A DNA stretch of 41,860 bases, from positions 1-41,860 of IMG/VR virus record IMGVR_UViG_3300006929_000035. The stretch is one strand, 5' to 3'. Under the pieces are notes generated by a model. It had not been told where the DNA came from. It saw nothing but the letters and a program-made list of their open reading frames with translations, and did no database searches. This stretch comes from a virus. Position numbers and translations under genes: made by a program. This document shows, one piece after another, positions 23,692-40,498 of this stretch (positions within the stretch are counted from its first letter, which is position 1; each line of letters opens with the position of its first letter).

Positions 23692-24216
23692 CGCAAACCT
23701 TACGCCTAATCACCCTGGGCGCTCGCAAAAGACAAACCACAGTCTTTAAGCCTCTAACACCATCCTCGTTACCCTGAAACACAGAAAATGTGTGCCGCAT
23801 CCATGAGCGGGTAGATCTATCTATACGCGAGGCGGCCCAACGTACTCCCCCCGGGTTCGCCCGCGGATACGTGCGGCCGCGTGCGTTGAAACGGATCGAG
23901 GCCTACGACGCCAAAGCTACGCAAAGCTACGGCCGACACGCTGGACAAACGTGGGGGTCGCGTGCTACCCGCGCGCATTATGCCCGATCACGCGAGCCAA
24001 AATCGGCCCATTTGACATTCACGGCAGCGTGGGGCATCACGCTCGGATGCGCGGATGACGCGTTCGCGTTCACGCGCCAATAAGGTCCCGTTCCACCCCG
24101 GCACAGGCGCGCCGCTGGCCATCGTGAAAATCCGAAACCCTGTGGTACGGTTTTACCACGTTGCTGACACGTTGTCGGCACGAACAGGTGCCCACGAGGC
24201 ACAGGAGCACATACAC
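23692..24216. promoter_or_regulatory. Divergent intergenic region between late (-) and early (+) operons
   Basis: This 525-base gap has no convincing gene and is the natural place for divergent promoters. Visible elements: ACACA-5-TGTGT dyad at 23779-23793; tandem AAAGCTACG at about 23923-23940; a TTGACA hexamer at 24012-24017 without a good -10 partner; a perfect GTGGTA-6-TACCAC dyad at 24142-24159; and an imperfect dyad around GACA-CGT-TGTC at 24163-24179. The two last dyads lie within 75 bases of the first early gene and are operator candidates. Confidence 0.4.
24142..24159. promoter_or_regulatory. Perfect 6-bp inverted repeat, operator candidate
   Basis: GTGGTA-CGGTTT-TACCAC, placed 58 bases upstream of the first early gene and followed closely by a second shorter dyad. 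There is no U-tract after it, so a protein-binding site is likelier than a terminator. Confidence 0.35.
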
Positions 24217-24720: not shown

Positions 24721-24733
24721 CCCGAGTGCCCGA

Positions 24734-24799
24734 GCGGGGGCGGGCATACGTCCCCCGCACACATACCTACGACATGCCCACGTGGCAAGGAGACCTACG
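24734..24799 (+). promoter_or_regulatory. Hairpin plus start-associated sequence before the 50-residue gene
   Basis: A GCGGGGG/CCCCCGC stem (24734-24740 with 24752-24758, 11-base loop) is followed by ACCTACGAC and then AAGGAGACCTACG directly before ATG 24800. The 13-base start-associated sequence recurs in front of most early genes. Confidence 0.6.
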
Positions 24800-24952
24800 A
24801 TGCAGACCTACGTATTCACGGCGAAAGAAATGCGAGACGTAGCCCTCTCGGGCGGCAAGTGCAACCGCACGCATCCCGACAAACGCAAGCGACGCAACCT
24901 GATGGCACGAGTCCGACGTACACGTCGGAAGTACGCAGCGGCGCAAGCGTAA
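24800..24952 (+). CDS. Small basic protein
   Basis: 50 residues, MQTYVFTAKEMRDVALSGGK followed by a Lys/Arg-rich tail (HPDKRKRRNLMARVRRTRRK). The ATG directly follows the start-associated sequence. Net charge is strongly positive, so nucleic-acid binding is likely. Function unknown. Confidence 0.65.
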   Translation: MQTYVFTAKEMRDVALSGGKCNRTHPDKRKRRNLMARVRRTRRKYAAAQA

Positions 24953-24963
24953 CCCAGGCGGGT

Positions 24964-25093
24964 GAGGCAAGCTACACGCTTGCCTCGCTCGATCGGGACG
25001 TAACCCACGACACGTAGGTCACGTTGCGATCGAGCGGGTATCCTCCGCTCACACATACATCACACGTACGTAGCACGTACGAGGAGCACAACG
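24964..25093 (+). promoter_or_regulatory. Double-hairpin leader plus start-associated sequence
   Basis: GAGGCAAGC pairs with GCTTGCCTC (24964-24972 with 24978-24986, five-base loop) and CGCTCGATCG with CGATCGAGCG (24986-24995 with 25027-25036). The segment ends with GAGGAGcacaacg immediately before ATG 25094. Confidence 0.6.
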
Positions 25094-25333
25094 ATGGACA
25101 ACCTGAACACATACGTACTCGACACGCTCGCCGACACGCTCGGCCACGAACCCACACACGCCGACGTGGCCACGTTGAACGTGCCCGACACGATCGACGG
25201 CCCGTACGGGATCCCGTACCTACACGGCCTCACGAGCCACGCAGATCTGCACGCTACGTTGAACGCACGTGAGGCCACACGTGCCCTACGTGCAGCGTTG
25301 TACGCCCTACGTACCGAACTGGCGCAAAGCTAA
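25094..25333 (+). CDS. Small early protein, function unknown
   Basis: 79 residues, MDNLNTYVLDTLADTLGHEP. Mostly helical and acidic to neutral, with a C-terminal helix (NAREATRALRAALYALRTEL). Start-associated sequence directly before the ATG. The codons are dominated by ACG, TAC and CGT, as throughout this part of the window. No family is recognised. Confidence 0.65.
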   Translation: MDNLNTYVLDTLADTLGHEPTHADVATLNVPDTIDGPYGIPYLHGLTSHADLHATLNAREATRALRAALYALRTELAQS

Positions 25334-25348
25334 CACATACACACGAGT

Positions 25349-25388
25349 GCACGTGCCCCACGTGGGGCACGTGCGAGGAGGACTTACG
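25349..25388 (+). promoter_or_regulatory. 26-bp perfect palindrome plus start-associated sequence
   Basis: Bases 25349-25374 read identically on both strands: GCACGTGCCCCA, then CG, then the exact complement. GAGGAG begins at 25375, the next base, with gacttacg leading to ATG 25389. As RNA it forms a strong hairpin stacked against the ribosome site. Confidence 0.75.
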
Positions 25389-25691
25389 ATGGAAAACGAA
25401 CACACATACGAGATCTGGAACGCAATCGTGGTCGGGCATGAGCCGTTCCCCACGGACATGCTCACAGGTGACAAGTGCTGGCCACGTACGAACTACGACG
25501 AGGAAGCGATCGCACGATCACACGTGAGGTGGTCTTACCGCTACGACTACTACCCGTACACGGAACGGGTGGACAAACGTAACAGGCGCTACGTGGTGAA
25601 CGTGCAAGGCAAGGGCAACGGGCCTTCGTTCCAAGCGTGGGAGGCATGTGGCTACACGTTCAAAAACATCGAGTACACGACCATCGACTAA
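25389..25691 (+). CDS. Small early protein, Tyr/Trp-rich
   Basis: 100 residues, MENEHTYEIWNAIVVGHEPF. Rich in aromatic residues (VRWSYRYDYYPYTERV), with a C-terminal segment FQAWEACGYTFKNIEYTTID. Probably a compact alpha/beta fold. ATG directly follows hairpin and start-associated sequence. Function unknown. Confidence 0.65.
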   Translation: MENEHTYEIWNAIVVGHEPFPTDMLTGDKCWPRTNYDEEAIARSHVRWSYRYDYYPYTERVDKRNRRYVVNVQGKGNGPSFQAWEACGYTFKNIEYTTID

Positions 25692-25704
25692 CACACACGC
25701 AAGT

Positions 25705-25743
25705 GCACGTGGCCAGGTGGCCACGTGCGAGAGGAGACATACG
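25705..25743 (+). promoter_or_regulatory. 11-bp stem hairpin plus start-associated sequence
   Basis: GCACGTGGCCA (25705-25715) pairs with TGGCCACGTGC (25718-25728), followed by GAGGAGacatacg before ATG 25744. The outer arms (GCACGTG/CACGTGC) match those of the hairpins at 25349 and 26458 while the inner pairs differ. Confidence 0.75.
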
Positions 25744-26034
25744 ATGTTCACAGCTACGACATGGGCGCAACAGTTCGGCGCAATCGAGATGCCAGACGAC
25801 GTGTCACGTACGAATTGCGAGAATTCCACGCACACGCAATGCGGACAGCACACGTGCTGCGGGAACCCACGCTTCATGGGCCACGAAGCCACGTGTGCGA
25901 ACGTAAACAAGGGCTCGTGGGTAACGCGCATTTGGCTGAACACGATTCAGTTTTGCATCTGCGACGAGATGCCCGAATACATGCGAGCACGTGGCCAGAT
26001 GTGCGTCACTTGCGACGAGGAGTCGTTCGACTAA
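25744..26034 (+). CDS. Small Cys-rich early protein
   Basis: 96 residues with ten Cys in clusters (RTNCENSTHTQCGQHTCCG, FCICDE, MCVTCDEESFD) and several His. This spacing suggests one or two zinc sites. The protein is otherwise acidic. Start-associated sequence directly upstream. It is one of about a dozen small Cys-pair proteins in this operon. Function unknown. Confidence 0.65.
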   Translation: MFTATTWAQQFGAIEMPDDVSRTNCENSTHTQCGQHTCCGNPRFMGHEATCANVNKGSWVTRIWLNTIQFCICDEMPEYMRARGQMCVTCDEESFD

Positions 26035-26047
26035 CACACACGAGTGG

Positions 26048-26166
26048 GGCGTGCCACGCACGCCTCGCTCACGTAGACGTAGATCCACGTGATACACGTC
26101 TACGTGAGCGGGGACTCCCGTTCAAACCTACGACATGGGCGCAATGCGCCCGAGAGGAGACCTACG
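26048..26166 (+). promoter_or_regulatory. Three-hairpin leader plus start-associated sequence
   Basis: Three stems in 104 bases: GGCGTG/CACGCC (26048-26053 with 26059-26064); a perfect 15-bp stem, CGCTCACGTAGACGT with its complement (26066-26080 with 26096-26110); and GGGCGCA/TGCGCCC (26137-26143 with 26145-26151). GAGGAGacctacg follows, then ATG 26167. An ACCTACGACATG copy precedes the last stem. Confidence 0.7.
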
Positions 26167-26421
26167 ATGGAAACGATCTACGACGTGCTTCACACGGTTA
26201 CTGCCAACTACGACGTGTACGGCGACACGTCGGAACACGAGGCCATATCATGCACGAGCCTGTCAACCCTGCTCGACGAAGTGCAACGTGAGTACACGCT
26301 CACGGATGATGAGGTGTGGGAGTTGAAAACCGACGGCGCCACCACGTACGGCGACGAGATCGGCACCGAGACGCTCACGCTCAGCTCGTCGTGGCTGGGA
26401 GGATGGAAGGCACGTTTCTAG
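26167..26421 (+). CDS. Small acidic early protein
   Basis: 84 residues, METIYDVLHTVTANYDVYGD, acidic, with a helical middle (STLLDEVQREYTLTDDEVWE) and a C-terminal beta-like segment. Start-associated sequence directly before ATG. No family is recognised. Confidence 0.65.
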   Translation: METIYDVLHTVTANYDVYGDTSEHEAISCTSLSTLLDEVQREYTLTDDEVWELKTDGATTYGDEIGTETLTLSSSWLGGWKARF

Positions 26422-26453
26422 CCTCACGCACGAGCGTGAGCGTACATACACAA
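26422..26453 (+). repeat. 32-bp direct repeat, copy 1 (contains a hairpin)
   Basis: Begins CCTCACGCACGAGCGTGAGC and ends ACATACACAA. An identical copy lies at 26694-26725. It contains the stem CTCACG/CGTGAG. The two copies flank the 65-residue gene, each directly after an upstream stop codon. Confidence 0.85.
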
Positions 26454-26457
26454 GTGT

Positions 26458-26495
26458 GCACGTGGGCCGGTGTGCCCACGTGCGAGGAGTCATAC
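26458..26495 (+). promoter_or_regulatory. 10-bp stem hairpin plus start-associated sequence
   Basis: GCACGTGGGC (26458-26467) pairs with GCCCACGTGC (26474-26483) across CGGTGT; GAGGAG starts on the next base, followed by tcatac and ATG 26496. Confidence 0.75.
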
Positions 26496-26693
26496 ATGAA
26501 GTACATCATCGAGCACGAGTACACGGAACGTAGCGTAGACCAGTACGAGGTCGAAGCTGACACGCACGAGCAGGCACTCGCCATCGTGCAGGACGAACTA
26601 GGCGAGTACGCAATCGTGGGCAGCGCGTTGCAAGAGCGTACGTCGCTCTCGTACACGACGCGACCTGCGAGCGAGTACAAGCAGGGCAGCTAA
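26496..26693 (+). CDS. Small acidic early protein
   Basis: 65 residues, MKYIIEHEYTERSVDQYEVE, acidic, with an alpha/beta pattern (strand, helix ADTHEQALAIVQDELGEYAI, strand) that resembles small single-domain phage proteins. It lies exactly between two identical 32-bp repeats, suggesting it moves or was duplicated as a cassette. Function unknown. Confidence 0.65.
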   Translation: MKYIIEHEYTERSVDQYEVEADTHEQALAIVQDELGEYAIVGSALQERTSLSYTTRPASEYKQGS

Positions 26694-26725
26694 CCTCACG
26701 CACGAGCGTGAGCGTACATACACAA
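26694..26725 (+). repeat. 32-bp direct repeat, copy 2
   Basis: Identical to 26422-26453 and 272 bases downstream of it. It starts directly after the TAA of the 65-residue gene. Confidence 0.85.
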
Positions 26726-26730
26726 CACGT

Positions 26731-26761
26731 GTGGGCCAGCGTGCCCACGAGGAGACCTACG
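26731..26761 (+). promoter_or_regulatory. Hairpin plus start-associated sequence
   Basis: GTGGGC (26731-26736) pairs with GCCCAC (26743-26748) across CAGCGT, followed immediately by GAGGAGacctacg and ATG 26762. Resembles the hairpin at 26458 with the outer GCACGT arm missing. Confidence 0.7.
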
Positions 26762-26917
26762 ATGGGAACAGCTACAAAGTGTGACCGATGCGAGCGACCG
26801 AGCGCGGTGCTTGCGATCACGGGTGAGGGCTTGTTGTGCGCACGTTGCGAACGACGCATGGACGCGGTACGCGCCGACGCACGACGCGTCGAGAACTGGG
26901 GCGTGTACCGTGCGTAA
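26762..26917 (+). CDS. Zinc-ribbon mini-protein
   Basis: 51 residues with CDRC and CARC separated by about 18 residues (MGTATKCDRCERPSAVLAIT, GLLCARCERRMD), a classic two-knuckle zinc ribbon, then a basic C-terminus. Start-associated sequence directly upstream. Its last eight bases overlap the next gene. Probably binds nucleic acid or a host protein. Confidence 0.7.
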   Translation: MGTATKCDRCERPSAVLAITGEGLLCARCERRMDAVRADARRVENWGVYRA

Positions 26918-27176
26918 CCCCGTATACGTGGCAGCGTTCAGGCCCGATGCGGGCAACGTGAACGGGGTCGGCGGTTTTGACTGGTTCACCGAACCCGAGT
27001 GGGCGATCGAGGCACACAGGTCAGGCGTTGGCGTGGGACACGAGGGCTACGAACACGCGCTGTTCACGTACGTGCCGAGCAAGCACGCGAGTCACATGCA
27101 GGTGACGAACGAGATCGACGCCGTGTACGACACAATCATGGGCGCGCTGGCGCCACACGAGGAGAACCTACGATGA
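26910..27176 (+). CDS. Small early protein, function unknown
   Basis: 88 residues from GTG 26910, which overlaps the end of the zinc-ribbon gene; no good ribosome site, so coupling is assumed. The sequence has an aromatic, Gly-rich N-terminus (GNVNGVGGFDWFTEPEWAIE) and a helical C-terminus. It ends ATGA-coupled to the next gene, and a GGCGC/GCGCC mini-hairpin followed by GAGGAG lies inside its last codons. An earlier in-frame start cannot be excluded. Confidence 0.55.
   Translation: MRNPVYVAAFRPDAGNVNGVGGFDWFTEPEWAIEAHRSGVGVGHEGYEHALFTYVPSKHASHMQVTNEIDAVYDTIMGALAPHEENLR
27141..27172 (+). promoter_or_regulatory. Coding-embedded mini-hairpin plus start-associated sequence
   Basis: GGCGC (27141-27145) and GCGCC (27150-27154) flank a four-base loop; GAGGAGaacctacg follows and leads to ATG 27173. 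The leader design is kept even though it lies inside the upstream gene. Confidence 0.55.
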
Positions 27177-27505
27177 ACAACCCATTCGAGCAGGGCGTTG
27201 CGTACAACGTACGCCTGTACGACCCGTGCGTCGAGCACGAGCGAATCACCCACATGGGGGTCACGTACGTCGGCCAACTGGACGACGAGTACGTGTTCCG
27301 TACGCAGACGACGGGGGCGATGCTGCTCGCGGTGTTCCCGACCGACATCGCTCAGGCGGCACGTACGCCTGAGCCAGGCAAGCTGCCACGCGGCTACGTC
27401 GTGCCCGTTCACAGGCGGGAGTGCTCGAAGCGTGGCGACCCGAGCACGCTCGGCCACGGCCACGTGTGCAACACGGAGTACGAACGGGCACGGTGGGCAT
27501 CTTGA
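27173..27505 (+). CDS. Small early protein with Cys/His pair
   Basis: 110 residues, MNNPFEQGVAYNVRLYDPCV. A beta-rich N-terminal domain (ITHMGVTYVGQLDDEYVF) suggests an SH3- or OB-like barrel; Cys and His in the C-terminal part (RRECSKRGDPSTLGHGHVC) may bind metal. Start codon directly follows the start-associated sequence. Function unknown. Confidence 0.65.
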   Translation: MNNPFEQGVAYNVRLYDPCVEHERITHMGVTYVGQLDDEYVFRTQTTGAMLLAVFPTDIAQAARTPEPGKLPRGYVVPVHRRECSKRGDPSTLGHGHVCNTEYERARWAS

Positions 27506-27807
27506 GCGACACGTTCGAGTGGCAAGAGACAACGCTTCCGCTGTCACGTACGTCGTACACGACGCGGTTACAGGAATTTGCCCGTGAGGAGGCGGGCTAC
27601 TGGGATCACGACTTGGGCACGTTCGTGCCGATCGTGGAGCGCGACAACCACGTGTATTTCCGAGCGACGTGCACGTGGTACGGATGTGATGCGTGGGCCG
27701 AAGTACGGCCCGACGCGCTCGTGCAAGCGGGCAACGATGGAATGAGTGGCGTAGCTCTCGTGACGTGGTGTCGCGGGAGTTCCGTGTCAGGAGATTTGAT
27801 TCAATGA
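27502..27807 (+). CDS. Small early protein with two Cys
   Basis: 101 residues if started at TTG 27502, which overlaps the upstream stop (TTGA); a GTG nine bases earlier is the alternative. The sequence includes EFAREEAGYWDHDLGTFVPI and FRATCTWYGCDAWAEV, beta-rich with a C-x4-C pair. It ends ATGA-coupled to the next gene. Function unknown. Confidence 0.5.
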   Translation: MSDTFEWQETTLPLSRTSYTTRLQEFAREEAGYWDHDLGTFVPIVERDNHVYFRATCTWYGCDAWAEVRPDALVQAGNDGMSGVALVTWCRGSSVSGDLIQ

Positions 27808-27911
27808 GCGCACAAACGGTAGGGTGCGACACGTGCAACAGGTACGCAGACGACCACGACGCGGCACAGGTTGTGTTCAACACATGGGAGGAAATGAATC
27901 GTGACGAATAA
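27804..27911 (+). CDS. 35-residue CxxC mini-protein
   Basis: MSAQTVGCDTCNRYADDHDA and an acidic helical end. AGGAG ten bases upstream, ATG overlapping the preceding stop. A single CxxC with downstream His/Asp could bind zinc or dimerise through it. The last bases overlap the next GTG. Confidence 0.55.
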   Translation: MSAQTVGCDTCNRYADDHDAAQVVFNTWEEMNRDE

Positions 27912-28017
27912 TAACAAACACGCACACGCCACGCTCGTACGCCTGGCGCGGGAGGCGAGCGAGCCAGCGGGAGAGCCAGCGGGAAAGGAGCCGAAAACCG
28001 AATTTGGCCAAAGCTAA
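27901..28017 (+). CDS. 38-residue peptide leading into structured element A
   Basis: Starts at GTG with GGAGG nine bases upstream; the sequence runs MTNNNKHAHATLVRLAREAS, then GEPAGKEPKTEFGQS. Its last 36 bases belong to a repeated element shared with the end of the 159-residue gene at 28708-29187, so both proteins end in the same GQS tail. It may function as a leader peptide for the structure that follows; this is inference. Confidence 0.5.
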   Translation: MTNNNKHAHATLVRLAREASEPAGEPAGKEPKTEFGQS

Positions 28018-28080
28018 GAGCCAAAATAACCCCCCCCTCAACGAAGTTGAGAGGGGGGGGTAAAGCAGCCCCCAAAATTT
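27982..28080 (+). repeat. Structured repeat element A (C-run/G-run/C-run)
   Basis: Shares order and much sequence with 29152-29249. Visible parts: GGAAAGGAG start, TGGCCAAAGCTAA with the upstream stop codon, C8 (28030-28037), stem TCAAC/GTTGA with GAA loop, a GA bulge, G8 (28053-28060), eight-base linker TAAAGCAG, a second C-run (28069-28073) and AAAATTT. The G-run can pair with either C-run, so two exclusive hairpins are possible. Pairing with the second C-run would be followed by a short U stretch, as in an intrinsic terminator. Confidence 0.7.
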
Positions 28081-28111
28081 CAGCAGGCCGAGAGGCCGAG
28101 GAGACTTGCGA

Positions 28112-28288
28112 ATGATGATCTTCGACACACACAAGCAAGCGGTCGCGATTGCGGCTGCGAACCAGCGGGATGAGAACGAGGCGACACACGAAGGCCACGT
28201 GCCGTGGACGTACCAGGCGCGGGAGATCCCACGCGGGTTCGTCGTGGACGTGGCAAACGAGTACGGCATCGTGGAGGGCCAGCTATGA
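28112..28288 (+). CDS. Small early protein, function unknown
   Basis: 58 residues, MMIFDTHKQAVAIAAANQRD. A GGCC-gaga-GGCC mini-hairpin and GAGGAGacttgcga precede ATG 28112. Sequence HVPWTYQAREIPRGFVVDVA suggests one small alpha/beta domain. ATGA-coupled to the next gene. Confidence 0.6.
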   Translation: MMIFDTHKQAVAIAAANQRDENEATHEGHVPWTYQAREIPRGFVVDVANEYGIVEGQL

Positions 28289-28599
28289 CCGTAGCAGAAA
28301 ACATCGCGAGCATCGCGCTCGACATGGGATCGCACCCGCTATACAGGGCCACGTATGACATGTACACGAAGGCGTTGGGCATCGGTGCACACGACGACTT
28401 CATCTTCGCCGCACGTTTAGCAGGCGAATATGCGGAGGCGTGGGAGCTAGTACACGACAAGGACTTCGACACGATCGAAGCGTCTGCGGAGGTGGCGGTG
28501 AAGATTCTCGTGTACGCATCGCACGGGAATAGCGTGGCTGACGAGGACACGATAAAACGTCTCGTCGATCAGGTACTCACGTGGAGGGATGGCAGGTGA
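28285..28599 (+). CDS. Small helical acidic protein
   Basis: 104 residues, MTVAENIASIALDMGSHPLY, nearly all alpha-helical (AARLAGEYAEAWELVHDKDF, TIKRLVDQVLTWRDGR). ATG overlaps the upstream stop; GGAGGG nearby. Coupled by overlap to the next GTG. Function unknown. Confidence 0.65.
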   Translation: MTVAENIASIALDMGSHPLYRATYDMYTKALGIGAHDDFIFAARLAGEYAEAWELVHDKDFDTIEASAEVAVKILVYASHGNSVADEDTIKRLVDQVLTWRDGR

Positions 28600-28706
28600 C
28601 GTTCACAGCGAAGTGCCCTGAGTGCGGACGTGTATTCGACATGTTCGACGACGAGGACGCACAGGAATGGGCGTACGGACACGATTGCGAACAGGAGGAA
28701 AGCTAG
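28596..28706 (+). CDS. 36-residue zinc-ribbon mini-protein
   Basis: GTG start overlapping the previous stop, GGAGGG upstream. MTFTAKCPECGRVFDMFDDE followed by a His and a Cys (GHDCEQ): C-x2-C...H-x1-C is a typical small zinc finger. Acidic rather than basic, so protein binding may be likelier than DNA binding. Confidence 0.6.
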   Translation: MTFTAKCPECGRVFDMFDDEDAQEWAYGHDCEQEES

Positions 28707-28707
28707 T

Positions 28708-29187
28708 ATGAGCATGTACTTGAAGCTGTTTCACGGACGCGTGGAAGGCGCGCCGGGCGCCACGACCTACGAGGGTGACGCTCTGGAGGACTTGGGCCAC
28801 TGTGGCCCCACGTTCGGGCCACTCGTGTACGTGCACACCACGTACAGCGCACGCATGGCAATCGAGTTTGCGAACGACCCCGACAAGGTTCGTATGAACG
28901 AGCTCTGGATTAAAAACGATGTTCTGCAATTCGCCGGGCACGAGTACGGAGATTGGAGCGTGTACGAGGCGGACGAACCTGACCTCGGGTGCGGAAGCAA
29001 CCCGTTCTTCGAGCGATGCCACGGAAGCGACGTGTGTCTCGCCTTAGATGCGGAAGGCGCAACGGGAGAGGTTCTTCGGTCACTCGCACGTGACAACGTG
29101 CTCATATCTACGGGCGAACATGCCCAAACGCTGACAGACCGGAGCCTAGCCGGAAAGGAGGCAAAATCGAAATCTGGCCAAAGCTAA
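28708..29187 (+). CDS. Early protein of 159 residues, function unknown
   Basis: Starts MSMYLKLFHGRVEGAPGATT at ATG 28708 with GGAGG upstream. The N-terminal 120 residues look like a folded alpha/beta domain (EDLGHCGPTFGPLVYVHTTY, MNELWIKNDVLQFAGHEYGD). The pattern of LFHGR..., TYEGD and LVYVHTTY recalls small phage proteins with an ADP-ribosyltransferase-like layout, but I cannot confirm catalytic residues. The C-terminus (GKEAKSKSGQS) belongs to structured element B. Confidence 0.6.
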   Translation: MSMYLKLFHGRVEGAPGATTYEGDALEDLGHCGPTFGPLVYVHTTYSARMAIEFANDPDKVRMNELWIKNDVLQFAGHEYGDWSVYEADEPDLGCGSNPFFERCHGSDVCLALDAEGATGEVLRSLARDNVLISTGEHAQTLTDRSLAGKEAKSKSGQS

Positions 29188-29249
29188 CCGGCCAAAATAC
29201 CCCCCTCTCACTTTAGTGAGAGAGGGGGGTTTAGCAACCCCAAATTTTT
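29152..29249 (+). repeat. Structured repeat element B (C-run/G-run/C-run)
   Basis: Second copy of the element at 27982-28080. C6 (29200-29205), stem TCTCAC/GTGAGA with TTTA loop, GA bulge, G6 (29224-29229), eight-base linker TTTAGCAA, C4 (29238-29241), AAATTTTT. Stem bases differ from copy A but pairing is kept, which is covariation. The bulge, linker length and order of runs are conserved. It lies between the 159-residue and 117-residue genes. Confidence 0.7.
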
Positions 29250-29281
29250 CTCTGGAAATTTAGTCTGAAAGGCGCAACGAC

Positions 29282-29635
29282 ATGAAACGACGACAACGCA
29301 GGATCGCAGCAGCTACCGCACTCGGCATCGAGCTCAACGGCAAACCCATGCACGAGCTTCGAGCGTTACTGGAACAGGACGTGAAGGCCAGCGAACGCTA
29401 CGCTGCGCTCGTAGGACGCACGTTCACACCTGCACCTACACCGGAGGCACCCGCACCGGAGGCACCTAAAGCGGATTCCACACCGAAACCCGCACCGAAA
29501 CCCGCACCCGCACCGAAAGCGCCCGCACGTACGACACGGGCGAAGAAGTCGACCAAAACATCGGGTAAAGTCAAGAACGTAGGCGGCGCACTCGCCGATG
29601 CGCTCAAGAAAGCCAACGCCAAGACGAAGAAATAA
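29282..29635 (+). CDS. Pro/Ala/Lys-rich basic protein (histone-like tail)
   Basis: 117 residues, MKRRQRRIAAATALGIELNG. A short helical N-terminal domain is followed by a low-complexity region at 50-90 made of PAPTPEAPAPEAPK-type repeats, then a Lys-rich C-terminus (RTTRAKKSTKTSGKVKNVGG, KKANAKTKK). The composition resembles histone H1-like or nucleoid-associated proteins, which suggests DNA binding. Located immediately before the sliding-clamp gene. Family not certain. Confidence 0.6.
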   Translation: MKRRQRRIAAATALGIELNGKPMHELRALLEQDVKASERYAALVGRTFTPAPTPEAPAPEAPKADSTPKPAPKPAPAPKAPARTTRAKKSTKTSGKVKNVGGALADALKKANAKTKK

Positions 29636-29693
29636 CGAGCGTCCGCTTAGGAGCACGGACACCTACGACACACGAGAGACGAGGAGACTACGA

Positions 29694-30410
29694 ATGGAAG
29701 ATTTTTACGCACAGGTTCCCACGCCTATATTCGAGGCGTGTGCAGGAAAAACCGACCAACGCCCTGTGCTCACTGGCGTACTCGTGGAGTACGCCAGTGA
29801 GGGCTTCGCAAGATTCACGGCAGCCGATGGATACATACTTGCGAGCGTTGAGGGTCCAGCGTCGTTACCGAACAACTTTGCGCCCACGCTCGTGCCTGGG
29901 TCGTTTATCAAAACGGCCTACACACGAAAGCGTACCGCATCGTACGCAAACAGGTTGCTGTTCGAGGACACACGTGACTCGTTAAGTAGCACGTTCACGC
30001 CTGACAAGGTGAGGATACGCAACGTGAACGGGGATGTGAGTGAGACCACGACGATTCAAGGTACGTACCCTGATTGGCGCAAACTTATCCCGTGGCGTGA
30101 CGAGAGCGACATGTACGAGGGATGGTACATGTCGATGGACCCGAAGCTAATCTCACGTTTGTGCAAGGCGGTGGACACGGACACGTTCACGGTCTCGATT
30201 GTAAATCCAAACTCACCGGGCGTAATTGCCACGGGTGAACACGACGCTATCGGCGTGATTATGCCGAAGTTTGCAAACCCAGATCACGAGCAGCTTGCGG
30301 AGAGAGCAACGAAGCTCGGTAGCACAACCATCGCACGACTCAAGCGAGAGTTGGCGACAGCGGAGAACACGATCAAAACCCTACAGGCGAAAGCACAGGT
30401 GACAGCCTAA
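29694..30410 (+). CDS. DnaN-like sliding clamp, shortened
   Basis: 238 residues, ATG preceded by GAGGAGactacga. RPVLTGVLVEY (23-33) and FTAADGYILASVEG (41-54) match the second domain of bacterial beta clamps (pattern RPvL.Gvl, AtDgh.la). GTYPDWRKLIP (123-133) matches the YPdyr.vIP segment, and GVIATGEHDAIGVIMPKF (176-193) recalls the C-terminal end strands. Bacterial DnaN is about 370 residues with three domains; this protein seems to lack domain 1 and to have a short domain 3, plus a C-terminal helix of its own. It probably tethers a polymerase to DNA. No polymerase gene is in the window. Confidence 0.7.
   Translation: MEDFYAQVPTPIFEACAGKTDQRPVLTGVLVEYASEGFARFTAADGYILASVEGPASLPNNFAPTLVPGSFIKTAYTRKRTASYANRLLFEDTRDSLSSTFTPDKVRIRNVNGDVSETTTIQGTYPDWRKLIPWRDESDMYEGWYMSMDPKLISRLCKAVDTDTFTVSIVNPNSPGVIATGEHDAIGVIMPKFANPDHEQLAERATKLGSTTIARLKRELATAENTIKTLQAKAQVTA
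29769..29801 (+). repeat. Perfect 15-bp hairpin inside the clamp gene
   Basis: CTCACTGGCGTACTC (29769-29783) and its exact complement (29787-29801) are separated by only three bases, GTG. It lies in codons for the VLTGVLVEYASEG segment, a conserved part of the clamp fold, so an RNA or DNA constraint acts on top of the protein code. Confidence 0.75.
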
Positions 30411-31450: not shown

Positions 31451-31463
31451 TCGTATTAAGGAA

Positions 31464-31510
31464 GCGGGCGGGAGCCTACACGCTCCCGCCCGCGTAAGGA
31501 GGAGACCTAC
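31464..31510 (+). promoter_or_regulatory. 12-bp stem hairpin plus start-associated sequence
   Basis: GCGGGCGGGAGC (31464-31475) pairs with GCTCCCGCCCGC (31482-31493) across CTACAC. GTAAGGAGGAGACCTAC follows directly before ATG 31511. No U-tract follows the stem, so it is not a normal terminator. Confidence 0.75.
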
Positions 31511-31855
31511 ATGAGCAACCCTACAGAAAATGGCGTGAAGATTCCCGAGCGCCTTCACGATCTCGCTATGGCTGTGGACGCCCTGCTGCCACCCATGCCA
31601 GAACCACCCGAGGATCTGGACGAGGACGAGGAAAAGCTCGACGAGTTTTATTCGATGGAAGGTCCTGCGGGACAGTTTGAAGCTCAAGCGTGGGACACGT
31701 TTGACACACTCTTAGACAGCGCAGAATGGGAGGACGTAAGACATTGGTACTTCGACTACTCCGAACGCAAGGAAAAGGGGGATATCGGCGACATGCCTGA
31801 CGTGGACACGTGGTTGTCCAACTACTTCACTGGCACCTACTCGTTCAGCATATAG
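31511..31855 (+). CDS. Acidic early protein, function unknown
   Basis: 114 residues, MSNPTENGVKIPERLHDLAM. A very acidic linker (PPEDLDEDEEKLDEFYSMEG) lies between a helical N-terminus and a helical C-terminal half (AQAWDTFDTLLDSAEWEDV, GDMPDVDTWLSNYFTG). Strong start-associated sequence. Acidic character could mimic DNA, but nothing specific supports that. Confidence 0.65.
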   Translation: MSNPTENGVKIPERLHDLAMAVDALLPPMPEPPEDLDEDEEKLDEFYSMEGPAGQFEAQAWDTFDTLLDSAEWEDVRHWYFDYSERKEKGDIGDMPDVDTWLSNYFTGTYSFSI

Positions 31856-31866
31856 GAGACCTACAC

Positions 31867-32241
31867 ATGGGCGACCGAAGAATGATCGAACTGAAAACGC
31901 GTGACGGTTCACTGTACGTGTACCTGCACAATCGTGGGTACGAGGCACCTGCAATCGTGTGCGATGCAATCGAGTTTGCACGTCCGCGTTGGAGCGACGA
32001 ATCGTACGCATTACGAATCATGGTGGATCAAATCATCAAGGGTGGGCGTGACCAACATTTGAGTTACGGACTCATGCTCAAGCCGAACGTGGAGGACGAG
32101 TACAACGCCAATGAACCGTCAATCATAATCAATTTGCCCGATCAAACGTGTGAGTTCATAGACAGACATGATCCTAAGTACAACGGGACTCTCACGTACG
32201 AGGAAGTGTCAGAGACACGTGAAAATATGGAGGCGAAGTAA
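31867..32241 (+). CDS. Small early protein, function unknown
   Basis: 124 residues from ATG 31867, preceded by AGGAGacctacac. MIELKTRDGSLYVYLHNRGY suggests an N-terminal beta-hairpin domain; the helix SYALRIMVDQIIKGGRDQHL and IIINLPDQTCEFID follow. Recurrent in style among phage early proteins, but no family is named. Confidence 0.65.
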   Translation: MGDRRMIELKTRDGSLYVYLHNRGYEAPAIVCDAIEFARPRWSDESYALRIMVDQIIKGGRDQHLSYGLMLKPNVEDEYNANEPSIIINLPDQTCEFIDRHDPKYNGTLTYEEVSETRENMEAK

Positions 32242-32244
32242 CAA

Positions 32245-32442
32245 ATGAGCATATTTGCGTGCCCCGCAAGCGAAGCAGCTTGCGGGGAGGTGCCGGGCGA
32301 GGACGGTGACGACTGCCGCGAGTGGAAGTGGCAGGTGCGCCGAGACAACGCAGACGGTAGTAGCGAGTTGCTCGACTGTTGCCTCACACAAGAGCAGGCC
32401 GAAGATACGGCCAAGAGAGGAGATCTACGATGGCGAAAATAG
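32245..32442 (+). CDS. Small Cys-containing protein
   Basis: 65 residues, MSIFACPASEAACGEVPGED, with Cys also at DDCREW and LLDCCLTQEQAE. GGAGG ten bases upstream. The middle (WKWQVRRDNADGSSELLDCC) may be a small beta-sheet with a metal site. Its end overlaps the start of the next gene by 13 bases. Function unknown. Confidence 0.55.
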   Translation: MSIFACPASEAACGEVPGEDGDDCREWKWQVRRDNADGSSELLDCCLTQEQAEDTAKRGDLRWRK

Positions 32443-32672
32443 AGGTGGACGAGCTTGCGCAGGACCACAGTTGCAAGGTGCCCAGGTATCGAATGGTCTT
32501 GACCGTGGACGAGTCCCACGACGTTCGTGCGATTGAAGATGGCGTGGTCTACATGGAATCGTACGGAGAGAGAGACGGTTTAGGTGGAGGCTATCTCGTC
32601 TGCGACGAGTGTGGCTTTGTCTGGTCGTACGCCTACGAGGACGACGTGCCTACCTACGAGTACGAGAATTGA
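32430..32672 (+). CDS. Small zinc-ribbon-like early protein
   Basis: 80 residues starting MAKIEVDELAQDHSCKVPRY, ATG preceded by GAGGAGatctacg. A CDEC pair (GGGYLVCDECGFVWSYAYED) with the earlier Cys could make a zinc site. Acidic C-terminus. Function unknown. Confidence 0.65.
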   Translation: MAKIEVDELAQDHSCKVPRYRMVLTVDESHDVRAIEDGVVYMESYGERDGLGGGYLVCDECGFVWSYAYEDDVPTYEYEN

Positions 32673-32699
32673 CGTTTACATTAGACGAGGAGATCTACG

Positions 32700-32897
32700 A
32701 TGGCCAAAATCGACATGACTAAACCACTGGCACCTGGGCGCGTCCGCTGCCAATGCTGCAAACGCAGCATGAAGCGACTGAAACGCGGGTGCCAAATGCA
32801 CTACGCATGTCTTACAGACCATGTGACCGGGCGTTGTGACGACTACGACCACCGCTTTATGTACGAAATGTTTCGGGCAAATTTTGGAGGGAAATGA
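32700..32897 (+). CDS. Zinc-binding mini-protein
   Basis: 65 residues, MAKIDMTKPLAPGRVRCQCC. Five Cys and three His spaced as CQCCKRSMKRLKRGCQMHYA and CLTDHVTGRCDDYDH suggest a treble-clef or double zinc knuckle. Basic N-half. GAGGAGatctacg directly before ATG. Confidence 0.65.
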   Translation: MAKIDMTKPLAPGRVRCQCCKRSMKRLKRGCQMHYACLTDHVTGRCDDYDHRFMYEMFRANFGGK

Positions 32898-32900
32898 ATC

Positions 32901-33245
32901 ATGTTACTGACGATTAAACAGGTGCTCGAAGCTGCGAGCAAGGCGTATGGCGCGCCTGGGCTCATGCAGCACGTGATTCCAGCGATGATGCCCACTGTAC
33001 ACGGGGGTGCCTTTACTAATGCACAGCATCATGCGTCATACATAGCCACATGTAGTCCACAAACGTGTCCTGACCCCTTCGGCCACGGGGTCGTTATAGA
33101 CATCATCGAGTGGATAGAACCTTCCATCGTAAACAACGGCACAATCATCGAACACACTCAACTGGATCAGGTGTTCGACCGTATGCACTCGGACATACGT
33201 CGCATCAAGAACGCGATAGACGCTTTAGAAAGGAAGGCGATATGA
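32901..33245 (+). CDS. Early protein, function unknown
   Basis: 114 residues, MLLTIKQVLEAASKAYGAPG, GGAGGG upstream. The N-terminal helix is followed by an irregular middle with Cys and Pro (ATCSPQTCPDPFGHGVVIDI) and a C-terminal coiled helix (DQVFDRMHSDIRRIKNAIDA). ATGA-coupled to the next gene. Unknown family. Confidence 0.6.
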   Translation: MLLTIKQVLEAASKAYGAPGLMQHVIPAMMPTVHGGAFTNAQHHASYIATCSPQTCPDPFGHGVVIDIIEWIEPSIVNNGTIIEHTQLDQVFDRMHSDIRRIKNAIDALERKAI

Positions 33246-33691
33246 AGATCACTGTTACGCAGAACATGCTCGCAGAGTTAATCATGTCCGAGGTCGAACC
33301 GTTCCGGTCAGATCACGGCGAGCGCAAGGAGCATGTCGCGATGGCATTTTGCCGGGATTGCGGAGGCCGCCCTAACTTAGAGCAGGAAGCGATGATCTGC
33401 GCAATCGAAAAGGCTAACCCTCGGAGCAAACGCCCGGTGATTACTGTCACCGAGTTTCAAGTGCCCGGGTGGGTGTGGGCACTTTACTACGACATAGACA
33501 AATGGGGAGATTGGGGGCGAGAAGGAACGCCTTACATCAGGGCGGGGCGACGCATCATGCAGGAGTTGGAAGCCGAGTACCCCGAGACATTCACAAAGGC
33601 CTACAACACCCTTATAGCCAGAAGCGCTGCTTGGAGGGGTTTGCCGTCCCATTTGCTGCGCTTGCCATACATACCACAGGAGGCTCAATAA
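33242..33691 (+). CDS. Early protein with CxxC, function unknown
   Basis: 149 residues, MKITVTQNMLAELIMSEVEP, ATG overlapping the upstream stop. It has a FCRDCGGRPN pair, a beta segment (RPVITVTEFQVPGWVWALYY) and a helical C-terminus (GRRIMQELEAEYPETFTKAY). Could be a small enzyme-like fold, but no catalytic signature is visible. Confidence 0.6.
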   Translation: MKITVTQNMLAELIMSEVEPFRSDHGERKEHVAMAFCRDCGGRPNLEQEAMICAIEKANPRSKRPVITVTEFQVPGWVWALYYDIDKWGDWGREGTPYIRAGRRIMQELEAEYPETFTKAYNTLIARSAAWRGLPSHLLRLPYIPQEAQ

Positions 33692-33692
33692 C

Positions 33693-34067
33693 ATGGATAT
33701 CAAAGATACAGAGAAGGCCATGCACACGCCGGGACCGTGGACAGCCAGCCCGACCCGAAAGGGCATCCTGGGCGACCCTGAGAGCTACCGACTATACGGC
33801 TTCGCCATCACCGCCGAGGAGCCGAAGATGTACGGAGGGACGCCCGTCGCTCACGTCTCCATCACCCGCAGGTACAGGCTTGTCGAGTGGTCAGACGAGA
33901 CCGAAGCCAACGCAGCCCTGATAGCTGCTGCTCCAGACATGAAGGAGGCGTTGATAGATGTGCTCGACTGGTACGACGAGTGGATGGAGAGCGATGAGCC
34001 AGAAAAACTTGATGTCGAACACTCGATGGACGCGGTTAGAACAATCCTGTCCCAAGTAATGAGGTAA
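33693..34067 (+). CDS. HTPGPW-motif phage protein
   Basis: 124 residues with CAGGAGG upstream. HTPGPW at residues 11-16 and EANAALIAAAPDMKEALIDV in the C-half form the signature of a phage hypothetical-protein family I recall from many dsDNA phages (HTPGPW ... NA.LIAAAP.l.eAL). The family function is unknown to me. Followed by a long-stem hairpin. Confidence 0.8.
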   Translation: MDIKDTEKAMHTPGPWTASPTRKGILGDPESYRLYGFAITAEEPKMYGGTPVAHVSITRRYRLVEWSDETEANAALIAAAPDMKEALIDVLDWYDEWMESDEPEKLDVEHSMDAVRTILSQVMR

Positions 34068-34075
34068 CATACCTA

Positions 34076-34128
34076 CGCGGTCGTCGTTCCTGGAAGTTGT
34101 GCTCCTGTGACGACGACCGCGTTCTGTT
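34076..34128 (+). terminator. Long-stem hairpin, possible terminator
   Basis: CGCGGTCGTCGT (34076-34087) pairs with ACGACGACCGCG (34110-34121) across a 22-base loop, followed by TTCTGTT. Placed nine bases after the HTPGPW gene stop. The loop is long and the U stretch weak, so it may be a processing hairpin instead. Confidence 0.45.
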
Positions 34129-34140
34129 ACCCTCGATTAC

Positions 34141-34452
34141 ATGCTCAAAGCATGTACCAGAGGTTGTGGTGGCTCCTTAATTCGGCACGCGGGCGGCGAT
34201 GTACGCTGCTCGATGTGCGCTCGGCCGCCACAGTCGAAGCAAGATTGCCCGATGTGTGGGTGCATAAACCCCCCTGGGTGCGTGACCCATCGCGTGGGAC
34301 TAGGCTCAGGGAAAGGCAGCATTTTTTCGATCTGCCGTTGGTGCCCCACAAGCCCGAGCATCCGAGTGCCTACGAAAAACAGGCACATTGACCGAGGGAA
34401 TCCGAAACAGAAGGAACGGATCTATCTGGCGCAACGGGCTGCGATTGGGTAG
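34141..34452 (+). CDS. Putative multi-zinc-finger protein
   Basis: 103 residues from ATG 34141. Paired Cys occur four times: CTRGC, CSMCARP, CPMCGC and CRWC, with a further NPPGCVTH; the arrangement looks like two zinc ribbons. No ribosome site is visible and the gene lacks the start-associated sequence, unlike most neighbours, so the start or even the gene is uncertain. The Cys pattern is the main support. Confidence 0.5.
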   Translation: MLKACTRGCGGSLIRHAGGDVRCSMCARPPQSKQDCPMCGCINPPGCVTHRVGLGSGKGSIFSICRWCPTSPSIRVPTKNRHIDRGNPKQKERIYLAQRAAIG

Positions 34453-34465
34453 ACTCATATTTCGC

Positions 34466-34581
34466 GTGGTTGGAGTTGTCTGTCGTAGGTCTCCTCCTCG
34501 ACCACGCAACGCCGGCCGGCTGTTTTGCAAGCAGCCGGGCCGGCGTACCTACGACACCTACGACGTAATGAGGAGATTACG
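34466..34581 (+). promoter_or_regulatory. Complex leader with reverse-complement start-associated sequence
   Basis: The bases 34484-34500, CGTAGGTCTCCTCCTCG, are the exact complement of the recurring GAGGAG-acctacg motif. Downstream are a bulged 13-bp stem (34510-34522 with 34532-34545), two ACCTACGAC copies and GAGGAGattacg before ATG 34582. The reverse copy could pair with the ribosome site of this or other early mRNAs. Confidence 0.6.
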
Positions 34582-34800
34582 ATGCAGTACGACGAAGCGT
34601 TCCACCGAGAGTGTTCTGGCGTTCAAGTGTGGGCGATTCACGAGAACAATCCCGAGCTCGAACACATAGAGATTCACCTACCCGAATCCGTGGGCATAAC
34701 TGTGAGCACCAATGATGATCGACCGCGGATCGTGCTACGTATGTCACCGGATCAGTGGCAAGAGCTTATTCTCCACGCACAAAATCCCCTCCGCTCGTAG
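34582..34800 (+). CDS. Small protein before the initiator gene
   Basis: 72 residues, MQYDEAFHRECSGVQVWAIH. A beta-rich middle (EIHLPESVGITVSTNDDRPR, IVLRMSPDQWQELILHAQ) resembles a small alpha/beta domain. Its TAG overlaps the initiator GTG by one base. Function unknown; co-expression with the initiator suggests a replication link. Confidence 0.65.
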   Translation: MQYDEAFHRECSGVQVWAIHENNPELEHIEIHLPESVGITVSTNDDRPRIVLRMSPDQWQELILHAQNPLRS

Positions 34801-35498
34801 TGGGCAAAGACGTTGAGACGTGGGCCTGGTCCACGTCCGTAGACACGACATCGAAAATTGTGCTTGTCTGGCTTGCGCGCACAGAAACCGAAATGGTTTC
34901 ACGCAGCGGTCCAACCGCAATCGCCGAATTAGCGAACATATCCGTACGCTCCGCTGAGCGCGCATTTCAACGTCTTGAAAACGCGAATTTTATATCGCGA
35001 ATTAAACGTGGAGTTTACGCAATCAAAACCGTCACGAGCGACGGTCCTACCGTCACCAGTGACGGTAAGCGAGAAACCGTCACCAGCGTGGGTCCAGACC
35101 GTCACCAGCGTGGGTTACTCGCGCGCGCAGATCTAAACAACAACAACAACAAGGCAAAACAAGAACAGTTGTTCACTGACTCAGAATGGGTAACGGTTAT
35201 CCATAACAGCACGTGGACGACGACGCAGTTAACGTCACCGCAAATTGCTCAGGTGGAAAAGAAGTACGCGTCGCTCGACCTCGTGGAAACCGCGATGCGG
35301 TGGGAAAACTGGCATAGCGCGGGCAAAGGCAAGCGGCGCAGGCCGAAAGATATTTACCGCAGCTTTACAAACTGGTTACGAAAGGAAATGCAACATGGCG
35401 AAACCAATGCAGGCGCTGGGAGACACTCTGCGATCAGTGGCAAACATAGATTCTCAGGCGATAGCAGACCGCGCGACGCAGGAACCGATTGGGTATGA
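34800..35498 (+). CDS. Replication initiator with N-terminal winged helix (lambda O-like organisation)
   Basis: 232 residues from GTG 34800 (TAGTG overlap). Residues about 15-75 form a winged helix-turn-helix (SKIVLVWLARTETEMVSRSG, IAELANISVRSAERAFQRLE, NFISRIKRGVYAI). Residues 77-105 are a repetitive linker encoded by four iteron-like repeats, followed by an Asn-rich AT-rich spacer (DLNNNNNKAKQ). The C-terminal domain (TAMRWENWHSAGKGKRRRPK, DIYRSFTNWLRKEMQ) is like the helicase-loader-contacting regions of DnaD or O-type proteins. The gene overlaps the DnaC-like loader gene by 104 bases. The role is origin binding and loader recruitment, by analogy. Confidence 0.75.
   Translation: MGKDVETWAWSTSVDTTSKIVLVWLARTETEMVSRSGPTAIAELANISVRSAERAFQRLENANFISRIKRGVYAIKTVTSDGPTVTSDGKRETVTSVGPDRHQRGLLARADLNNNNNKAKQEQLFTDSEWVTVIHNSTWTTTQLTSPQIAQVEKKYASLDLVETAMRWENWHSAGKGKRRRPKDIYRSFTNWLRKEMQHGETNAGAGRHSAISGKHRFSGDSRPRDAGTDWV
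35028..35160 (+). other. Predicted replication origin: four iterons and AT-rich spacer
   Basis: Four 18-bp repeats start at 35028, 35049, 35076 and 35098, spaced 21, 27 and 22 bases. All begin ACCGTCAC; copies 1 and 2 are dyads (ACCGTC...GACGGT, ACCGTCACCAGTGACGGT), copies 3 and 4 are identical (ACCGTCACCAGCGTGGGT). The AT-rich tract 35133-35167 follows. The arrangement inside an initiator gene is that of lambda ori. Function is inferred. Confidence 0.7.
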
Positions 35499-36261
35499 GT
35501 ATGCGTGTGACACGTGCCAGGATTATCTGTGGGTTCATTACTTAAACGAGTACGGAACATGGCCGAAGTTGCACGAGCCGGGTTTCGGCAAGCTAGTTCC
35601 ATGTCCAGACTGCACATCATCGACCGTGGCGCAGGTAGCTGAGGCAAAGACGGCAGGTTTGTTCCGAAAGGCGGGTCTTGAGGGCGTGAACGTGGCTCGT
35701 ATCGACACCTTTGACACGAGCAGGCAGATGCACTCGATGAAAGCACAACAGTCAGCCGAATTAGCGAAACGAGCCACGTTGGATTGGGCAAGTGGTACTG
35801 GTCCAGAATTCCTCGTGCTGACCGGCGGTACTGGTGTGGGAAAAACTCATCTATCGCAGGGCGCTGTCGTACGTGTTATCGAGCGTGGCGACCCGGTGGT
35901 GTACGTAATATGGGCTGATTTCGTTTTCGGACTGCGCCAAAAGCTGGATGAGTCGCACGAGTATATGCGTACACTTCGCGATGCAAAGTATCTCGTGATT
36001 GACGAGATCCTGAGTGCAAGAGACACGACATCGTTTTTGGCCGAGACACTCCAGGATTTGCTCGGTCACAGGACGCACTACAACAAGCCAACCGTGCTCG
36101 CAGGCAATTTGGTTGCCGAGGGCGAGACCCCAAGCGAACGTAAACAATGGTGGATCGACCGTGTAGGAGAGCGGTTTGTATCGAGGATGCAAGACAAAAC
36201 GATGGTCAAAATCGTGGACATGTGGGAGTGCGACGATTTAAGGCCGCAGCAAGGAGATTAG
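35395..36261 (+). CDS. DnaC/DnaI-like AAA+ helicase loader
   Basis: 288 residues from ATG 35395 (weak AAGGAAA upstream, inside the initiator gene). Zinc ribbon near the N-terminus: CDTC (38-41) and CPDC (70-73). AAA+ core: Walker A GGTGVGKT (144-151), Walker B YLVIDEI (199-205) with Asp203/Glu204, sensor-like VLAGNL and an arginine-finger region (DRVGERFVSRM). This matches DnaC/IstB-type loaders, which place the hexameric replicative helicase on the origin. No helicase gene is in the window, so host helicase is the likely partner. Confidence 0.88.
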   Translation: MAKPMQALGDTLRSVANIDSQAIADRATQEPIGYEYACDTCQDYLWVHYLNEYGTWPKLHEPGFGKLVPCPDCTSSTVAQVAEAKTAGLFRKAGLEGVNVARIDTFDTSRQMHSMKAQQSAELAKRATLDWASGTGPEFLVLTGGTGVGKTHLSQGAVVRVIERGDPVVYVIWADFVFGLRQKLDESHEYMRTLRDAKYLVIDEILSARDTTSFLAETLQDLLGHRTHYNKPTVLAGNLVAEGETPSERKQWWIDRVGERFVSRMQDKTMVKIVDMWECDDLRPQQGD

Positions 36262-36262
36262 C

Positions 36263-37141
36263 GTGACCCTACGAGACGAAATGGCAAAGGAAAGGACGAA
36301 GCGTGGGGCAAGTCTTACGCAGCAATACCAAACTGGTGCGCCGATTGCAGCCGCAGTCGAAACGCACATGCGCCGTAAATACGGCGAAAGGAGACCTATG
36401 ACCGACTCGACAGAGGTAATGACGATAACTCGTGAGGACGTAGCTGTGACGCAGCAGGCGTGGGGAGCATTTGCTCCACTGTTCAAGGAAATGGGCCCTG
36501 CTATGCAGCTTGCACGCCTGCACAAGACAGGCTTTGAGCCATATCACATCGACCTGGTACATGGCTCGCTGTACATCAACATCAAGGGTCTGGAATGGCA
36601 TGCAAAACAGAAGCTCGGCGCTCGTTGGGGCCGGCTAGTCACAACGCTGGTGCCCGAAGCTGACAAATTGGCTTACGGAATTGGGCCAGATGAAATAGGT
36701 GTCATTGCGCACTACTACGCTAGGCATCCGATCACGCTGGATCTCGAAGCTGTCCCATCCGAGGAAGGTTTTGGACGGGCTTCCACGAAAAAGGGCCAGC
36801 AGGTAATTGCTGGTTCGGCCATTGAAACTGCACACCCGTACCGGATGGCACAGAAACGTGCGCAAGCTGCATGCCTGCGCAATGTTGCGCCGATCGGAAT
36901 TGACATCGGCACGGCCGACGAGGGAATGGTTCTAGGTGTGGACGTGCCTGAACGCAACATGCTGCCCGAGGCAGAGCTTGTTCAGGAGCTCGATCAGGAG
37001 GAGTCAGCGATCTGCTTCCGAGACGATTGCGAGAACGAGGCTGGGCCTACCGTGGACGGACGAGCAACCTGTGAAACACATGCAGCCGAGGAGATCGCCA
37101 AGATGGTCAACCACACGGAGGCAAAGCAAATGGAGTGGTAA
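36263..37141 (+). CDS. Putative RecT-like single-strand annealing protein (two possible starts)
   Basis: 292 residues from GTG 36263 (AAGGAG upstream), or 247 from ATG 36398, which has the stronger AAAGGAGacct leader. Segment DLVHGSLYINIKGLEWHAK recalls the RecT-type beta core, and ETAHPYRMAQKRAQAACLRN followed by VAPIGI matches the RecT C-terminal pattern P..MA.K.A......lP. A C-terminal CFRDDCENE...ATCETH zinc motif is unusual. It sits between the helicase loader and SbcC/SbcD, as annealing proteins often sit beside exonucleases. Call is tentative; another recombination mediator is possible. Confidence 0.45.
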   Translation: MTLRDEMAKERTKRGASLTQQYQTGAPIAAAVETHMRRKYGERRPMTDSTEVMTITREDVAVTQQAWGAFAPLFKEMGPAMQLARLHKTGFEPYHIDLVHGSLYINIKGLEWHAKQKLGARWGRLVTTLVPEADKLAYGIGPDEIGVIAHYYARHPITLDLEAVPSEEGFGRASTKKGQQVIAGSAIETAHPYRMAQKRAQAACLRNVAPIGIDIGTADEGMVLGVDVPERNMLPEAELVQELDQEESAICFRDDCENEAGPTVDGRATCETHAAEEIAKMVNHTEAKQMEW

Positions 37142-37164
37142 TTCTGAAAACGTGATTTTTTGTC

Positions 37165-37196
37165 GCGATATTTTTATCGCAGTTTGAGGAGAACTT
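37165..37196 (+). promoter_or_regulatory. Hairpin plus start-associated sequence before sbcC
   Basis: GCGATA (37165-37170), TTTT loop, TATCGC (37175-37180), then GAGGAGaactt before ATG 37197. Same leader design as the early genes, but AT-rich. Confidence 0.6.
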
Positions 37197-40441: not shown

Positions 40442-40498
40442 TTTGTAACACTGTCCAGAATGTAGAGAATGACAGTCTAAGCGCGAGGTAGCTATGGA

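Follow-up and report, generated by a model that had tools for sequence, protein, structure and literature searches.

The start-associated sequences (SAS) of Cluster K mycobacteriophages are short, asymmetric motifs with a Shine-Dalgarno core, found in one orientation at the starts of many non-structural genes; the start is usually ATG, most sites follow longer gaps and about half have an upstream inverted repeat (PMC3203893). The repeats of these extended forms (ESAS) keep their sequence and, according to the authors, do not support RNA pairing (PMC3203893). AnnaSerena and Krampus, Microbacterium phages of Cluster EF, have a conserved motif at ten ribosome sites, GGGAAAGGACCCC, linked to an upstream element (PMC7302621). 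Here we describe a system of this kind in an unclassified phage, IMG/VR record IMGVR_UViG_3300006929_000035, whose entire 41,860 bases (the window) were analysed. Nineteen plus-strand early genes carry GGAG and an ACCTACG-related spacer immediately 5' of the start codon, and a single inverted copy of this motif lies in a predicted hairpin that could act on them in trans.

The window resembles the Cluster K SAS in motif position, orientation, restriction to non-structural genes, ATG starts and upstream hairpins, and it shares with four K1 phages the presence of a single inverted copy. However, the Cluster K consensus is GGGATAGGAGCCC and that of the window is GAGGAGACCTACG, which places the window outside Cluster K. 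ESAS are repeats of conserved sequence without support for pairing, whereas the window has stems of variable sequence in which pairing is kept; it also has an additional AC-rich linker. The earlier note on this DNA had compared the leaders to these extended repeats, and the upstream stem is indeed there but is not a conserved inverted repeat. The Cluster EF motif is of the same type but has another sequence, an unrelated genome and, in AnnaSerena, no inverted copy that we could find. By its conserved motif at ATG starts of non-structural genes in one orientation, the window system is of the SAS kind, as in Clusters K and EF. Its own SAS sequence, the RNA hairpins of variable sequence and the linker are new here.

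The late genes lie on the minus strand from ~23.7 kb downward, and the plus strand from ~24.2 kb carries small genes and replication/recombination genes, whose early expression is inferred from the genome layout. All 19 start codons listed in the earlier note were present with the described sequence in front, and all are ATG. The ACCTACG spacer was found exactly in a minority of leaders; the rest carry ACATACG, ATCTACG, ACTTACG, ATTACG, AACTT and related forms. We scanned positions 24001-41860 with a pattern that allows spacer variation, GGAG-N0-6-TAC(G)(A)-ATG, using 200 dinucleotide shuffles as a control. The pattern had 13 plus-strand matches in the early half (shuffle expectation 0.17 ± 0.40, maximum 2) and none on the minus strand or in the late region. 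A stricter form of the motif occurred 8 times versus 0 in 200 shuffles. Because TACG words are common in the early region, comparing ATGs within the genome is the better control: of the 32 gene-start ATGs, 10 had TACG immediately before them, as did 1 of the 224 ATGs elsewhere (Fisher p 2e-9). The early-versus-late comparison proposed in the earlier note supports an SAS-type system with a sequence of its own, with the motif confined to non-structural plus-strand genes and no ACCTACG-type spacer at the late genes. Early starts without the motif belong mostly to overlapping or abutting genes inside operons. Leaders 27173, 31867, 32430, 36398 and 39113 overlap, or almost overlap, the preceding gene.

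The leaders might be plain optimised ribosome-binding sites, spread by duplication, that need no trans factor and whose hairpins prevent upstream pairing. GGAG is core Shine-Dalgarno sequence. Many of the early genes are short and tightly packed, and leaders may plausibly have been duplicated, 26421-26495 being a near copy of 26693-26761. However, each spacer position from -8 to -1 carries 0.3 to 0.9 bits, a conservation that goes further than 16S pairing would explain, as the earlier note had held. The spacer is unused by the late genes of the same phage and by every genome sampled, and the linker repeats the SAS motif at a distance from the start codon. We consider this explanation somewhat unlikely.

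Matches to the 16-base SAS in IMG/VR (104) did not cluster and were at chance level, scattered over phyla. Those in GTDB were also scattered over phyla, and the inspected loci were coding (Glu-Glu-Thr-Tyr-Asp, EETYD). The motif does not behave as a general host signal in the genomes sampled: GGAGANCTACGATG was present no more than twice in any of the 796 genomes searched, from two phyla. We found the SAS motif in use in no virus but this phage and in none of the genomes sampled; within the data examined, it is private to this phage. IMG/VR searches for relatives with the terminase, DUF932 protein, capsid and portal returned none, or ~30-36% identity in single genes without the motif. There was no close DNA match among known phages, and the window proteins tested were unrelated to those of known phages or ~30% identical at best.

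We then scored hairpins as uninterrupted stems whose end falls 0-8 nt before GGAG; plain folding energy is a weak test (p 0.04), and stem geometry was therefore used instead. Scores of at least 15 were reached by 11 of the 19 leaders versus 8% of random sites (binomial p 4e-8); among other GGAG sites the figure was 6 of 81, and among those on the minus strand 7%. Scores of at least 12 were reached by 15 of 19 leaders versus 24% of random sites. The hairpins reported in the earlier note are thus enriched but not universal, with no stem adjoining GGAG in leaders 29694, 31867 and 39113. Stem sequences mostly differ among leaders while stem position is kept (e.g., GCACGTGCCCC/GGGGCACGTGC, GCACGTGGCC/GGCCACGTGC, GCACGTGGGC/GCCCACGTGC). 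Three stems have similar arms, and their differences are paired changes, which suggests that selection acts on pairing.

Varying stem sequence at a kept position speaks for a structure in the RNA rather than for a site at which protein binds DNA. A repeated, asymmetric motif in a single orientation would suit a site bound, as RNA or as DNA, by a protein of the phage or its host; promoters, which have been proposed for ESAS, would be one case, and the ESAS of Adephagia contain putative SigA-like promoters (PMC11373665). The window leaders, however, have no excess of sigma-70-like sites (5 vs 7.8 expected, other promoter types being outside the search), and this explanation appears improbable given how much the stems differ. 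The earlier note had also suggested recombination seams between gene cassettes, which would place a common short sequence at many boundaries among small unrelated genes. We regard this as very improbable because homologous seams would be expected to share sequence through the hairpin, and the hairpins differ among leaders. Moreover, SAS sites overlap preceding gene ends and part the functionally linked SbcC/SbcD-like genes 37197/39113, and no relatives were found in which shuffling could be seen.

The linker, AC(A/C)TAC, and the inverted copy were not part of the earlier note. The linker occurs in 9 of 17 intergenic leaders versus 0.96 ± 0.94 expected, 33-70 nt before the start and usually directly 5' of the hairpin; four of these nine leaders have the full ACCTACGACA. 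Several leaders have an additional hairpin 5' of the linker (e.g., CTCACGCACGAGCGTGAG in two), and the order hairpin-linker-hairpin(-SAS) is found at 24800, 25094, 26167, 26496 and 26762. In the leader of gene 34141 (34068-34140), which lacks a Shine-Dalgarno sequence, we also observed a linker, ACATACCTACG, together with a perfect hairpin of 12 bp (34076-34087 pairing with 34110-34121).

The five leaders with this order would fit mRNA processing, in which a phage or host endoribonuclease cuts the linker or GGAG and leaves a 5' hairpin. T4 RegB is the precedent: it cuts the GGAG of early leaders, and its strong sites are A-rich after GGAG (PMC3014915). In T4 as in the window, early leaders are marked by GGAG, and RegB shutoff is post-transcriptional. 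However, RegB is a protein nuclease that prefers an A-rich 3' context, and the window GGAG sites are not A-rich. Neither a regB-like nor another such nuclease was recognised among the window proteins scanned, most small early proteins lying outside the scan. Processing is, in our view, quite unlikely.

On the minus strand, the full GAGGAGACCTACG occurs only once, at 34484-34496, in the gap 3' of gene 34141-34452 and not in front of any start codon. On the transcribed plus strand this copy reads TGTCGTAGGTCTCCTCCTCG and is complementary to both SAS and linker. The exact inverted match is 14 nt long (34483-34496); assuming uniform bases, a given 14-mer would turn up by chance on a single strand of 41.9 kb with a probability of ~1.6e-4. 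Folding of 34453-34547 (-52.6 kcal/mol) predicts a hairpin with an outer stem of 8 bp and, 3' of it, a second, very stable hairpin, which possibly guards the 3' end of a small RNA or is the upstream hairpin of the 34582 leader. Rfam gave no family match above the gathering score. Predicted pairing of the anti-SAS averaged -28.5 kcal/mol with motif leaders, -15.6 with non-motif leaders and -17.6 with late leaders, and among 400 30-mers drawn at random from the region only 1 paired as strongly. Such a preference is to be expected from the sequence match itself and adds no separate evidence.

Taken together, these results lead us to favour, tentatively and short of calling it probable, a start-associated leader system that acts on RNA, with a phage anti-SAS RNA as the likeliest trans factor. 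At the sequence level, the 19 early genes, most of those that open a new translation unit, have one ribosome-binding cassette in common: a GAGGAG Shine-Dalgarno sequence, a fixed ACCTACG-related spacer, usually a variable hairpin upstream and often an unpaired AC-rich AC(A/C)TAC linker. The common sequence would let one trans factor act on all SAS genes simultaneously. The likeliest factor with sequence support would be the phage's own RNA, the hairpin downstream of gene 34141-34452, which is complementary to its target leaders by predicted pairing. This RNA could act as antisense to the leaders: by pairing with them it would block ribosome loading and so lower early-gene expression or fix its level. 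For the upstream hairpins, the probable role is to insulate the ribosome site or, after linker cleavage, to shield the 5' end. The streptococcal csRNAs, two-stem-loop small RNAs complementary to Shine-Dalgarno and start regions, are thought to block initiation (PMC3091779) and so resemble the proposed RNA in action; we claim no homology. Unlike the anti-SAS of the window, they are host RNAs under CiaR whose anti-Shine-Dalgarno sequence is unpaired between the stem-loops.

The K1 mycobacteriophages offer an independent parallel: a lone SAS in the opposite orientation, away from gene starts, is reported for each of Anaya, Adephagia, Angelica and CrimD (PMC3203893), and we located it at 59870, 58682, 58634 and 58835, respectively. 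In all four K1 phages it reads GCGCGG-CCTCCTATCC-CCGCGC, with the anti-SAS as the loop of a long, strong hairpin. The site lies in an annotated gap between two right-end genes in three of the four, and inside annotated gene 92 (58503-58850) in Angelica; an annotated gene covers it in Validus too, and calling the region noncoding depends on the annotation. Four divergent relatives also have the hairpin: Validus, Shaobing, Amelie (loop sequence kept) and Amohnition, whose loop is degenerate (CCCTCCTTCCCC) although its own SAS is standard. Over the eight sequences, 92.4% of pair cells in the helix are standard, versus <50% when the partners are slid, and most K1 helix changes keep pairing. We regard the structural evidence for the K1 hairpin, from these alignments, as moderate. 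The region around the K1 anti-SAS is present in 177 Mycobacterium phage records. Separately, five Cluster K phages with SAS have an RtcB-like RNA ligase in the same arm; there is none in the annotated part of Pixie that was read. It is conceivable, though unlikely, that in SAS systems of unrelated phages a phage-encoded anti-SAS RNA, a hairpin displaying the SAS complement, tunes translation across the early regulon, the K1 inverted SAS being the same device. This reading was absent from the literature searched, which took in few subscription papers and not the ZoeJ study cited by PMC12699233.

Several observations weigh against antisense control by an anti-SAS RNA. In the window, the predicted fold leaves only part of the anti-SAS unpaired and has a modest z-score (-2.19), and the SAS sites are barely more open than random (0.52 vs 0.44 ± 0.16). 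The inverted copy could be a relic of a lost minus-strand leader; no relatives of the window were found, and its anti-SAS is known from one genome. The K1 helix has only one double (compensatory) pair change and does not strongly exceed a column-shuffle control. An exact anti-SAS copy is absent from Pixie and Amohnition, Cluster K phages with many SAS, and a search of AnnaSerena for an inverted SAS found none close. An anti-SAS is therefore not required in every SAS system.

Table 1. Leaders with a SAS and other features of the window
Feature	Position	Strand	SAS or matching sequence	Linker	Hairpin or remark
Leader of gene 24217	24204..24216	+	GGAGCACATACAC (variant)		24188-24202
Leader of gene 24800	24787..24799	+	AAGGAGACCTACG	ACATACCTACGACAT (upstream)	
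Leader of gene 25094	25065..25093	+	GAGGAGCACAACG		25065-25081
Leader of gene 25389	25348..25388	+	GAGGAGGACTTACG		25348-25375 (12 bp)
Leader of gene 25744	25704..25743	+	GAGGAGACATACG		25704-25729 (11 bp)
Leader of gene 26167	26126..26166	+	GAGGAGACCTACG	ACCTACGACAT	26136-26152
Leader of gene 26496	26444..26495	+	GAGGAGTCATAC	ACATACACAAG	26457-26484
Leader of gene 26762	26716..26761	+	GAGGAGACCTACG	ACATACACAAC	26730-26749
Leader of gene 27173	27141..27172	+	GAGGAGAACCTACG		27141-27154
Leader of gene 28112	28086..28111	+	GAGGAGACTTGCGA		28086-28097
Leader of clamp-like gene 29694	29661..29693	+	GAGGAGACTACGA	ACCTACGACAC	none adjacent
Leader of gene 31511	31464..31510	+	GAGGAGACCTAC		31464-31493 (12 bp)
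Leader of gene 31867	31855..31866	+	GGAGACCTACAC		none
Leader of gene 32430	32397..32429	+	GAGGAGATCTACG		32397-32412
Leader of gene 32700	32673..32699	+	GAGGAGATCTACG		32673-32687 (weak)
Leader of gene 34582	34547..34581	+	GAGGAGATTACG	ACCTACGACACCTACGAC (double)	
Leader of gene 36398	36371..36397	+	GGAGACCT (short)		36371-36386
Leader of SbcC-like gene 37197	37165..37196	+	GAGGAGAACTT (short)		37165-37180
Leader of SbcD-like gene 39113	39099..39112	+	GAGGTAGACCTACG (variant)		none
Candidate anti-SAS hairpin	34464..34507	+	TCGTAGGTCTCCTC at 34483-34496		exact reverse complement of SAS GAGGAGACCTACGA
Very stable second hairpin	34509..34546	+			3' of anti-SAS hairpin, no U-tract
Capsid-family protein	8657-9601	minus			late gene
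Terminase large subunit	19687-21228	minus			late gene
DUF932 protein gene	30410	plus			
DnaC-like gene	35395	plus			
Resolvase-like gene	40499	plus			

Other features of the window were noted. No tRNA genes were found in it. In many IMG/VR contigs, homologues of the 124-aa protein encoded at 31867-32241 are found no more than a few kb from DUF932 genes, which suggests a conserved partner. Two similar, strong hairpins (28030-28058 and 29200-29227), with common flanks, GGCCAAAGCTAA ... CCAAAATA, lie among the plus-strand genes and look like terminators when read on the minus strand. In the early half (noted at 24000-28000), CACGTG and CGTACG words are dense within and outside genes relative to the late half.

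The role of the SAS has been open since 2011, when the inverted SAS of K1 phages was reported without a function. The present genome is a further, unrelated one with this layout and shows that the SAS strategy arises repeatedly. An inverted copy held in a hairpin, here and in the K1 mycobacteriophages, may turn an odd footnote into a specific mechanism that can be tested in a tractable phage.

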